Below, piece by piece: positions 1-36,031 of a stretch of 36,031 nucleotides of DNA (positions within the stretch are counted from its first letter, which is position 1; every line of letters begins with the position of its first letter). This stretch comes from a virus. The stretch lies in the IMG/VR virus record IMGVR_UViG_3300034062_000755, positions 1-36,031 of that record. One strand, written 5' to 3'. Under the pieces are notes generated by a model, which searched no databases, was not told where the DNA came from, and saw nothing but the letters and a program-made list of their open reading frames with translations. Position numbers and translations under genes: made by a program.

Positions 1-248
1 ATACGGGATCAGCAGGCGCGTTCGTTGTTAATGGCGGCGCTCTTGGAACTCCGTCCTCTGGCACGCTGACAAGTTGTACGGGCTTGCCTGTTTCAACGGG
101 CATTTCCGGCCTTGGAAGCAACGTCGCCACATGGCTTGCTACGCCGTCGAGCGCGAACCTTGCTGCTGCGGTGACGGACGAGACGGGTACTGGCGCCCTG
201 GTGTTTGCCAATACGCCAACCTTGGTGACGCCGGTATTGGGTACGCCG
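1..248. repeat. Terminal repeat, left copy (matches 35784-36031)
   Basis: Bases 1-127 are identical to 35784-35910. The next 121 bases align without gaps but differ at 11 positions, all at third codon positions and all synonymous in the tail-fibre frame. The exact part can be a circular-assembly overlap. The diverged part shows two real sequence versions, either strain variants or two fibre repeat units. Confidence 0.9.
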
Positions 249-9255: not shown

Positions 9256-9266
9256 TTGCTAGTGTG

Positions 9267-9295
9267 ATACGCGCGAGGTACTATCCTCGGCGTAT
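9267..9295 (+). other. Stable hairpin after the scaffold gene
   Basis: ATACGC (9267-9272) pairs with GCGTAT (9290-9295), and CGAGG (9274-9278) pairs with CCTCG (9285-9289), with one bulged G and a six-base loop. No U-tract follows, so this is not a classic terminator. It lies 12 bases after the scaffold stop and 22 bases before a true terminator. It may protect the scaffold mRNA 3' end or be a processing site. Confidence 0.6.
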
Positions 9296-9316
9296 TCTCC
9301 TGTGAGAGCTAGACTT

Positions 9317-9349
9317 GAGACCCGGGAGAAATCTCGGGTCTCTTTTTTT
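9317..9349 (+). terminator. Rho-independent terminator between scaffold and major capsid genes
   Basis: GAGACCCG (9317-9324) pairs perfectly with CGGGTCTC (9335-9342) around a ten-base loop, followed by seven T (9343-9349). It would end or attenuate transcription from the portal-scaffold side and lets the capsid gene be expressed at its own level. Confidence 0.9.
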
Positions 9350-9497
9350 GCGCATAGGACAGGGCAAGTCGCAAGACCCCAACTGACAGTCGGAAAGACG
9401 ACCGATCGGTGAGAGCGTATCTCGCAAGGATTCTGGCCCCGGCAACGGACAAGCCATCCGAGAAACACTACATATTTAGTTTTTTTGGAGGGCTATC
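9350..9497 (+). promoter_or_regulatory. Leader region of the major capsid gene
   Basis: The 148 bases after the terminator hold no gene. They contain a perfect 10-base palindrome ACCGATCGGT (9401-9410), an AT-rich stretch ending in eight T (about 9470-9486), and a strong GGAGG six bases before the capsid ATG. A promoter is expected here, since a terminator precedes a highly expressed gene. No convincing -35/-10 pair is visible, so the promoter is inferred rather than seen. Confidence 0.4.
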
Positions 9498-28260: not shown

Positions 28261-28479
28261 ATGACATTCACGGAACTACTGTCCCACTATGGGACGCAAG
28301 CAGAGATAGCCCGGGCGTATGGCGTCAGCCGTGCCTCGGTCAATCGTTGGGCAAAGACAGGCGTGGTGCCGGAGCTGCGCGTATTGCAGTTTGAGCGCAA
28401 CCAGAACCCGCAGGAGCGCCGGCTGGAGCGCAAGCGTCTGCAAGTCGAGGCTGCCCGTCGATGGGCTGAGAAAGGCTGA
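28261..28479 (+). CDS. Cro-like helix-turn-helix regulator
   Basis: The product is 72 residues, with GTQAEIARAYGVSRASVNRW at 11-30, a clear helix-turn-helix (YdaS/Cro style), and a basic C-terminus (NPQERRLERKRLQVEAARRW). A perfect AGGAGG lies four bases before the ATG. It is divergent from the recombination operon across the operator region and is the only DNA-binding switch-type regulator recognised. With no integrase or CI-size repressor seen, an early/late control role is more likely than lysogeny. Confidence 0.85.
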   Translation: MTFTELLSHYGTQAEIARAYGVSRASVNRWAKTGVVPELRVLQFERNQNPQERRLERKRLQVEAARRWAEKG

Positions 28480-28499
28480 GAATGCCTATAAACGACAAA

Positions 28500-28513
28500 C
28501 CCCCTTGCGGGGG
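28500..28513 (+). other. GC hairpin just after the HTH gene
   Basis: CCCCC (28500-28504) and GGGGG (28509-28513) close a TTGC loop, 21 bases after the HTH stop. It is followed by CTTG rather than a T-run, so it may slow or partly end transcription but is not a strong intrinsic terminator. Confidence 0.5.
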
Positions 28514-28514
28514 C

Positions 28515-28544
28515 TTGACGCTGCCGGGGGAATGGCATTACGCT
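28515..28544 (+). promoter_or_regulatory. Weak candidate promoter into the structured region
   Basis: TTGACG (28515-28520) is followed after 18 bases by TACGCT (28539-28544). The -35 is good, but the -10 keeps only the T, A and final T. Transcription would start near 28550 and give a ~330-base leader before the next gene. Confidence 0.3.
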
Positions 28545-28878
28545 TGGGTTGCATTTCGAGCGTGATGGAATTCTGATGAACCGTTCTGGTTCTGTCAACA
28601 ACTCTGTTACGCCAAGAAGCTCGGGATCTCTGGACGGGGAAACAACGCGCAGAGAATCCTTAAACCCACACCGGGGCGGCCAGCCTGTGGGTGCGCAGCG
28701 TGTCGTCGGGAAGCGCAAATGGCAATCGGAGCAATCCGATGAAATGTAGCCGACAGCAGGGTGGCTCCGTCAGTCATCAAATCTCTGCACGATCCAGCGT
28801 TAGGCGTATTCCGTCTATGCTCCGTGCAGAGTTCACCATCAGTCATCTGGTCTAAATCAATAACTACAGGAGAAAGTC
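28545..28878 (+). ncRNA. Gene-poor region with four stem-loops; candidate structured RNA or long leader
   Basis: This stretch lacks a convincing gene. It holds ACCCACA/TGTGGGT (28664-28670 with 28686-28692), then GTCGG/CCGAC (28705-28709 with 28750-28754) enclosing ATCGGA-GCAA-TCCGAT (28725-28740, a GNRA tetraloop). It also holds CTCTGCACG/CGTGCAGAG (28783-28791 with 28823-28831), itself enclosing TAGGCG-TATTC-CGTCTA (28801-28817). Two copies of TCAGTCATC (28770-28778, 28839-28847) flank the last element. AGGAG for the next gene is at its end. It could be a regulatory RNA, a leader or a replication origin. No known RNA family is matched by eye. Confidence 0.5.
28576..28749 (+). CDS. Doubtful small open frame inside the structured region
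   Basis: ATG 28576 to TAG 28749 would give 57 polar residues (MNRSGSVNNSVTPRSSGSLD and on). There is only a poor ribosome site, the codon choice is unlike the flanking genes, and the frame runs through two hairpins. It is listed so that it can be checked; non-coding is more likely. Confidence 0.2.
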   Translation: MNRSGSVNNSVTPRSSGSLDGETTRRESLNPHRGGQPVGAQRVVGKRKWQSEQSDEM

Positions 28879-29205
28879 ATGGGTGATGAGTTCATGTATA
28901 CACCTAGCGTATATACACAGAAACCTGAGAAGAAAGCTGAAGATCGTAGTGACTATGCTGCTAAGAATTCAGCAGAGTATTGGGCTACAGCAGTTAGTGA
29001 AAATCCCCTCAATCGTTTACGTTTACTCGATGCCAAACTCGCTAGACCCGGTGTCGATGTCGAATCCATCAAGGCTCGTGCTGGTGAACTGATCCGCGAG
29101 ATCGGTGCTGCCAAAGTTCTCGGTGACCCTGATTGCGTCGGCCTCGTGCGACAACTGTTTGGTCAGCGCGGTGTCGATCGGTTGAAAGAGAGGGCATCGG
29201 CATGA
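28879..29205 (+). CDS. Small early protein after the structured leader
   Basis: The product is 108 residues with AGGAG eight bases upstream. The N-terminal half is polar with a Tyr/Lys-rich start (YTPSVYTQKPEKKAEDRSDY). The C-terminal half is helical (RLLDAKLARPGVDVESIKAR and VRQLFGQRGVDRLKERASA). The first ~160 bases are clearly more AT-rich than the rest and hold TATACAC twice (28898-28918). No replication-protein motif is seen. The stop overlaps the next start (ATGA). Confidence 0.7.
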   Translation: MGDEFMYTPSVYTQKPEKKAEDRSDYAAKNSAEYWATAVSENPLNRLRLLDAKLARPGVDVESIKARAGELIREIGAAKVLGDPDCVGLVRQLFGQRGVDRLKERASA

Positions 29206-35161: not shown

Positions 35162-36031
35162 ATGGCCGATACCAAGATTAGTGCGTTAAGCTCCGGAGCA
35201 CCGGCGCAAGCAGGCGACGAGACTGTTGTTGCTCGGTCTGGAGCAAACTACAAGCTCACGGTAGCAAACATCGTTGGCTATCTCGGCACTCCGATCACCG
35301 TCGCGAATGGCGGTACTGGTCAATCGTCGTATACCGACGGCCAGTTGTTGATTGGCAACTCCACCGGCAACACGCTCTCGAAGGCGACGTTGACGGCTGG
35401 AAGCGGCATCAGCATCACCAATGGCTCTGGCTCGATCACGATTGCAGCAACGGGCGGCGGCGGCACGGTTACTTCGGTCAGCGGTACAGGTACGGTCAGC
35501 GGCTTGACGCTGACTGGCACGGTGACGAGTTCTGGCAGCTTGACGCTCGGCGGTACGCTCTCGGTCAACCTTGCATCGAGTGTTACGGGTACGCTGCCGA
35601 TCGCTAACGGTGGCACCGGATTAACCAGCGGAACAAGCGGCGGCGTGTTGGCCTTTACCGCATCCGGAACGATTGCCTCGTCGACTGCGCTGGCTGCAAA
35701 TGCGTTGGTTGTCGGTGGCGGCGCTGGCGCTGCGCCGAGCAGCATTACAACGGGTACCGGCGTTGTTACTGCGCTGGGCGTTAATACGGGATCAGCAGGC
35801 GCGTTCGTTGTTAATGGCGGCGCTCTTGGAACTCCGTCCTCTGGCACGCTGACAAGTTGTACGGGCTTGCCTGTTTCAACGGGCATTTCCGGCCTTGGAA
35901 GCAACGTCGCTACATGGCTTGCTACGCCGTCAAGCGCAAATCTTGCCGCTGCGGTGACAGACGAGACGGGTACGGGCGCGCTGGTGTTTGCCAATACCCC
36001 GACCTTGGTGACGCCGGTATTGGGTACCCCG
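35162..36031 (+). CDS. Tail fibre protein, N-terminal part (3' end outside the window)
   Basis: The first 290 codons are open to the right end, from ATG 35162 with GGAG eight bases upstream. The anchor (ADTKISALSSGAPAQAGDET, ANYKLTVANIVGYLG) is like that of the 33921 gene. Next come Gly/Thr/Ser repeats with NGGTG motifs (ITVANGGTGQSS, LPIANGGTGLTS) and the unit shared with bases 1-248. It continues in the same frame at the left end of the window and is inferred to end at 611. Confidence 0.87.
   Translation, partial: MADTKISALSSGAPAQAGDETVVARSGANYKLTVANIVGYLGTPITVANGGTGQSSYTDGQLLIGNSTGNTLSKATLTAGSGISITNGSGSITIAATGGGGTVTSVSGTGTVSGLTLTGTVTSSGSLTLGGTLSVNLASSVTGTLPIANGGTGLTSGTSGGVLAFTASGTIASSTALAANALVVGGGAGAAPSSITTGTGVVTALGVNTGSAGAFVVNGGALGTPSSGTLTSCTGLPVSTGISGLGSNVATWLATPSSANLAAAVTDETGTGALVFANTPTLVTPVLGTP
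35784..36031. repeat. Terminal repeat, right copy (matches 1-248)
   Basis: The first 127 bases are identical to 1-127; the remaining 121 align with 11 synonymous third-position differences. The frame continues across the join. The coincidence of 127 exact bases with a common largest assembly word size suggests the exact part is where an assembler closed or branched. Confidence 0.9.

Follow-up and report, generated by a model that had tools for sequence, protein, structure and literature searches.

What lies between the Cro-like regulator gene and the first rightward early gene of this phage, at positions 28480-28878 of the 36,031-base IMG/VR virus record analysed here (the window)? An earlier note had called the stretch gene-free, the window's only long gap and a row of stems ending at a ribosome site, and had offered a regulatory RNA, a structured leader or a replication origin as its role. 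None of its open reading frames (66, 54, 41, 143 and 79 amino acids) is convincing as a gene, and a protein gene through the region can be rejected because no frame is kept among relatives, in which indels of every phase occur. The gap is the longest in the window but has company (e.g. 9256-9497), while a Shine-Dalgarno sequence, AGGAGA at ~28869, does close it ahead of the gene at 28879-29205. A tRNA/tmRNA search of the region found none, and the Rfam search that the note had proposed gave no family at the gathering score of Rfam 15; permissive settings returned a chance match to PVT1_3 alone (E 0.3), leaving group I/II introns and RNase P without Rfam support as identities.

The folding energy of the region is moderately unusual (z = -2.6 on the + strand and -2.3 on the - strand), which is modest by itself, and the case for a functional RNA therefore rests on comparison. 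With the downstream protein (28879-29205) as query we retrieved 31 viral loci, whose upstream DNA carries the same element with obvious paired substitutions. The element, which we call RNA I, is ~300 nt long and runs on the + strand from about 28551 to 28848, with two pseudoknots. In an alignment of 37 diverse members the proposed structure has standard pairs in 95.5% of pair cells and two-sided changes at 34 of 50 pairs, giving a covariation score of 0.457, against 0.05-0.09 for controls in which the pairing partners were slid by 1-3 columns (29-43% paired). Aligning relatives, as the note had advised, thus revealed the compensatory changes whose absence, like a conserved protein frame, would have spoken against an RNA. 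G-U far exceeds A-C in the helices (121 and 22 cells, respectively), which makes + the RNA strand. We firmly conclude that RNA I is a structured RNA not described before, which covaries, is widespread and has a promoter-like sequence of its own.

A scan of IMG/VR with two short patterns from the most conserved parts of RNA I, whose listed matches are a lower bound, was followed up by a profile search that places it in at least 211 freshwater viral loci, many of them redundant; 39 copies differ from one another by more than 10%. BLAST and pattern searches of 50,697 phage records gave no match, nor did a plasmid collection or the GTDB genomes, the last searched with two strict patterns that distant copies could escape.

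The stems described earlier are real, although they form not a simple row but two crossing pseudoknots with alternative pairings (Table 1), and the first ~60 bases of the region, a terminator-like hairpin and a promoter, lie outside the RNA. The GCAA-loop hairpin at 28725-28740 and the GTCGG/CCGAC helix around it, Pd and PK2 here, had been read exactly, and both show compensatory changes. Many unpaired bases are invariant. There is little covariation evidence for pairing between GGGG(C/U) and GCUCC, because both are nearly invariant.

Table 1. Features of the region, its neighbours and its counterparts in related loci. Positions refer to the window unless a locus (L) is named.
Feature	Position	Strand	Remarks
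Cro/YdaS-like regulator gene (PF14549 P22_Cro)	28261-28479	+	upstream of the region
Terminator-like hairpin, CCCCC-TTGC-GGGGG	28500-28513	+	cassette start; kept behind different upstream genes
Sigma70-type promoter, TTGACG-18 bp-TACGCT	28515-28544	+	
5' arm hairpin with conserved TGTCAA	28551-28613	+	covaries; also in DUF1376 or type II RNA relatives
Helix Pa (28625-28632/28650-28658)	28625-28658	+	conserved loop GWCGGGGAAACNACGCG
Helix Pb	28665-28670/28686-28691	+	99.5% paired; two-sided changes at 6/6 pairs
GGGG(C/U) in Pb loop	28673-28677	+	complementary to GCUCC 28764-28768
Pseudoknot PK1	28679-28682/28720-28723	+	98.0% paired; two-sided changes at 3/4 pairs
Helix Pc	28692-28696/28713-28717	+	100% paired
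Crossing pseudoknot PK2	28705-28709/28750-28754	+	100% paired; two-sided changes at 4/5 pairs
Variable GNRA-type hairpin Pd inside PK2	28725-28729/28736-28740	+	90.6% paired
Strand P (28761-28765, RUGGC) pairing with repeat R1 (28767-28778)	28761-28778	+	96.2% paired
Hairpin Pe (28784-28791/28823-28830), inner stem 28802-28805/28813-28816	28784-28830	+	
Repeat R2	28836-28847	+	can take R1's place on strand P
First rightward early gene, MGDEF... family	28879-29205	+	usual cassette partner in the window's subgroup
Iteron array and AT-rich repeats in DUF1376 gene	L019:2807-2914; L241:4311-4416		also L028, L272, L335, L246, L253
Type II RNA	L261:2200-2520; L021:2226-2440		also L231, L282, L294, L316, L322, L331-L333, L340-L361

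Two sets of pairings in the 3' part of RNA I are mutually exclusive. Repeats R1 and R2, which share 7-11 nt, change in concert across the family, and strand P fits R1 as well as R2, with both pairings conserved; likewise, ACG in the 5' arm of Pe (28789-28791) can pair instead with CGU of the core (28699-28701) in 100% of members, with two-sided changes. These alternatives (P-R1 or P-R2, and Pe or core CGU) suggest a two-state fold. In L085 and L053, and partly in L111 and L102, R1 still equals R2 over 7-11 bases though strand P no longer matches. No extra exact copies of the repeat, as would be found if it served as a DNA iteron, occur elsewhere.

RNA I travels with its promoter. The pattern TT[GT]AC, a spacer of 17 or 18 bp and TAnnnT is found in 173 of the 197 loci with enough upstream DNA, and the variants obey the consensus (TTTACA and TTGCGT at -35; TATTTT, TACTCT, TATCCT and TATGAT at -10); we infer a transcription start at about 28551. 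The terminator-like hairpin overlaps the -35 box and in the majority of copies follows AAACGA(C)AAA, while the genes further upstream vary (Cro-like, DNA methyltransferase or divergent genes). DNA methyltransferase genes are often found 5' of the cassette. The promoter spacer forms an inverted repeat of variable sequence that may be an operator. The inverted repeats at 28521-28538, in the spacer, and 28539-28566, across the -10 box, vary in sequence between phages while their symmetry is kept; possibly they are operators co-evolving with the repressor or Cro. A long-range RNA helix between TTGAC and GTCAA was rejected because the -35 variants TTTAC and TTGCG fit the promoter consensus and break the pairing.

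What RNA I might do is suggested by what replaces it. Between a shared promoter and shared downstream genes, a single slot holds RNA I, a second structured RNA (type II, below) or a gene for a DUF1376 protein. Locus L019 shares the Cro gene, the promoter cassette and the MGDEF gene with the window but has a DUF1376 gene in RNA I's place; such a gene is present in four of four contigs lacking the RNA and in none of 18 contigs carrying it, an exclusion that may partly reflect lineage, since the RNA-minus contigs are few and come from related phages. Conversely, RNA I was found in none of 27 DUF1376 loci, in a search that detected its positive controls. We take DUF1376 proteins as putative initiators from a database label and from iterons: they match PHROG 'primosomal protein' families over their N-terminal part, and their genes contain GCGAACGCAAT iterons spaced by 11 bp, followed by 14-bp AT-rich repeats. 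Iterons and AT-rich repeats inside an initiator gene are the textbook layout of an origin, and the array is likely to be a theta-type origin. The lambda-type O gene likewise contains ori iterons, and its replication slot comes first in the right operon, after cro. A slot after cro is common to both systems, and the DUF1376 alternative shares the internal iterons, whereas the RNA-bearing phages have neither these nor the initiator's DNA-binding half.

No iteron array was found near RNA I, no DnaA box lies within -300 to +700 of any RNA I copy, and no match to Phage_rep_O, IstB/DnaC or DNA_pol_A was found in the RNA-plus contigs, in which DnaB_C appears in two larger phages only, near the RNA. 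The first gene after RNA I varies; frequently it encodes a short protein whose matches to O-like initiators or primosomal families are confined to their C-terminal part: several RNA-plus contigs match phrog_678 at residues ~195-319 of 346 only, and several match phrog_6451 at 175-257 of 272 only, where DUF1376 phages match 1-120. The window's own gene at 28879-29205 is without an O-like domain.

Loci encoding the short O-like C-terminal protein also led to the second RNA. RNA I is present in 44 of 80 such loci. Of those lacking it, 31 extend far enough upstream to show the slot: four carry DUF1376, and most of the others another structured RNA, termed type II and divided into subtypes a and b, which again follows the common promoter and 5' arm. 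For type IIa, represented by 15 distinct copies, 56 pairs are predicted, 98.9% paired, with two-sided changes at nine of the 56. Type II is apparently unrelated to type I, which was absent from the 21 type II loci examined, and the L021 copy has no Rfam match. A DUF559 (Vsr-like) endonuclease gene often lies 3' of type II RNA (L021:2422-2961, L261, L282, L320). There would thus seem to be two undescribed structured RNA families, both common in lake viruses, and a natural swap of an RNA for a protein gene in one slot, which offers a testable case of an RNA taking over the job of an origin-binding protein.

Most simply, the slot would be where replication is initiated, and RNAs would carry out this step in the majority of these phages. 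RNA I probably belongs to the replication module, and we give roughly an even chance to its being a replication origin or initiation element, in principle like ColE1 RNA II, as judged from sequence. Such a portable cassette would place a terminator hairpin, a promoter and a ~300-nt non-coding RNA in the replication-initiation slot, and the transcript would act in cis at or near the origin, either as a preprimer or R-loop RNA in the manner of ColE1 RNA II or as a scaffold that, aided by the downstream protein, brings in the host's helicase loading and so replaces the DNA-binding half of the initiator. Opening would take place in the AT-rich stretch that directly follows the RNA, where mean GC dips to 0.43 from ~0.555; the stretch fits this role but also that of a ribosome-binding region, in which low GC is usual. 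The fuller version, in which types I and II each replaced the origin-binding half in a large group of freshwater phages and left an initiator split between RNA and protein, with the RNA marking the origin and a short O-like C-terminal protein loading the host helicase, seems to us rather unlikely. If true, the origin reading would explain how replication starts in small phages without recognisable initiators. Among the roles first offered, a conserved structured RNA is therefore established, and the proposed origin gains support from the exchange with DUF1376 and its iterons. GC skew was uninformative. Phages can also replicate by host proteins alone or by recombination, and the window phage has Sak and YqaJ; this weighs against the origin reading, as do the lack of DnaA boxes around RNA I and of an O-like domain in the window's own first gene.

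An RNA-based origin has precedent in ColE1 RNA II and in the alternation of RepA and RNA among mycobacteriophages. ColE1 replicates via RNA II without a plasmid-encoded initiator (PMC5043065), and RNA I resembles RNA II in being a structured RNA with its own promoter (here promoter-like), in having alternative folds that may matter and as a predicted stand-in for an initiator. It differs in its length of ~300 nt, its unrelated sequence and its place in front of phage genes; the antisense RNA (in ColE1 also named RNA I), R-loop and RNase H site are features of ColE1 (PMC5043065). In the cluster A mycobacteriophages RedRock, Alma and LadyBird a non-coding RNA region is needed for prophage replication and relatives use RepA, according to the excerpted account in PMC7157519; RNA and protein alternate among relatives there as here, if DUF1376 is taken as the protein initiator. 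By the same excerpt, those origins serve prophage maintenance beside parABS in Actinobacteria, whereas the present slot follows Cro at the head of an early operon, and conserved structure is not among the features it describes, in contrast to the two covarying families here (PMC7157519).

No terminator was found after R2, and RNA I continues into the Shine-Dalgarno sequence and gene as a leader would, which counts against an origin role. It is accordingly possible, if on the unlikely side, that RNA I serves in cis as a 5' leader, either altering how the long rightward operon is transcribed, by antitermination like that of HK022 put, or regulating the first genes riboswitch-fashion: it is promoter-proximal on the operon's own transcript, travels with its promoter, is present whichever gene comes first and offers the alternative pairings that are typical for switches, and a strong terminator-like site (9317-9342) lies within the late operon. 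However, where DUF1376 fills the slot the same promoter, 5' arm and downstream genes occur in its absence, so the operon does not need the RNA as such; moreover, terminator-like sites downstream on the + strand are few, no more than chance, and no link to a ligand-related gene was seen. Like put, RNA I is structured and lies close to the promoter of an early phage operon, but put, with two short stem-loops, is a far smaller RNA that acts on RNA polymerase, while the double pseudoknot, single copy and replaceability by a protein gene set RNA I apart in architecture (PMC9378689).

We consider it improbable that RNA I acts in trans, whether in host take-over, as a scaffold or as a decoy, made from its own promoter and processed at the 3' end, since the lack of a terminator, its nearly constant position at the head of the same operon and the exclusion by DUF1376, which such a role does not predict, weigh against the promoter, the many invariant unpaired bases and the varying first gene that would suit it. 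RNA I does recall GOLLD, ROOL and OLE, large ornate RNAs of bacteria and phages with unknown roles, although it is smaller, differs in structure and setting and has no match in Rfam (PMC12286853).

Least of all do we expect a translation device or ribozyme, in which ribosomes would start at the RUG of strand P and hop over Pe from R1 to R2 (or the RNA would be spliced there): RUG precedes R1 in 146 of 146 copies, R1 and R2 share their 7-11 nt, and the gene of L144, L065 and L148, which has no normal start, shows an open frame reaching back to R2 in the R1 (RUG) phase, but RUG is forced by pairing with GUCAY and has no Shine-Dalgarno ahead of it, the R1 phase is shifted in members such as L038 and L097, and the joined and gene frames fall into phases 43/30/27 over 100 distinct configurations, no clear excess over one third when common ancestry is allowed for, so that the hop is unsupported as a general rule. 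In L144, L065 and L148 hairpin Pe breaks the frame although it is open back through R2.

Some minor observations concern the record and the cassette. Similar tail-fibre-like repeats are encoded at both ends of the window (1-80 and 35950-36031), so that the record probably represents a circular or permuted genome, nearly complete and broken within a repetitive gene. The hairpin at 9317-9342 carries a T7 tail and lies between two genes of the rightward structural operon. The RNA cores of L051 and L072 are near-identical while their 3' modules differ (GATGGCTCC.. and GTGAGGCTCC.., respectively), each with its own matching R1 and R2, a modular exchange by recombination. In one RNA I copy (L189:2239-2340) hairpin Pb is tandemly duplicated.
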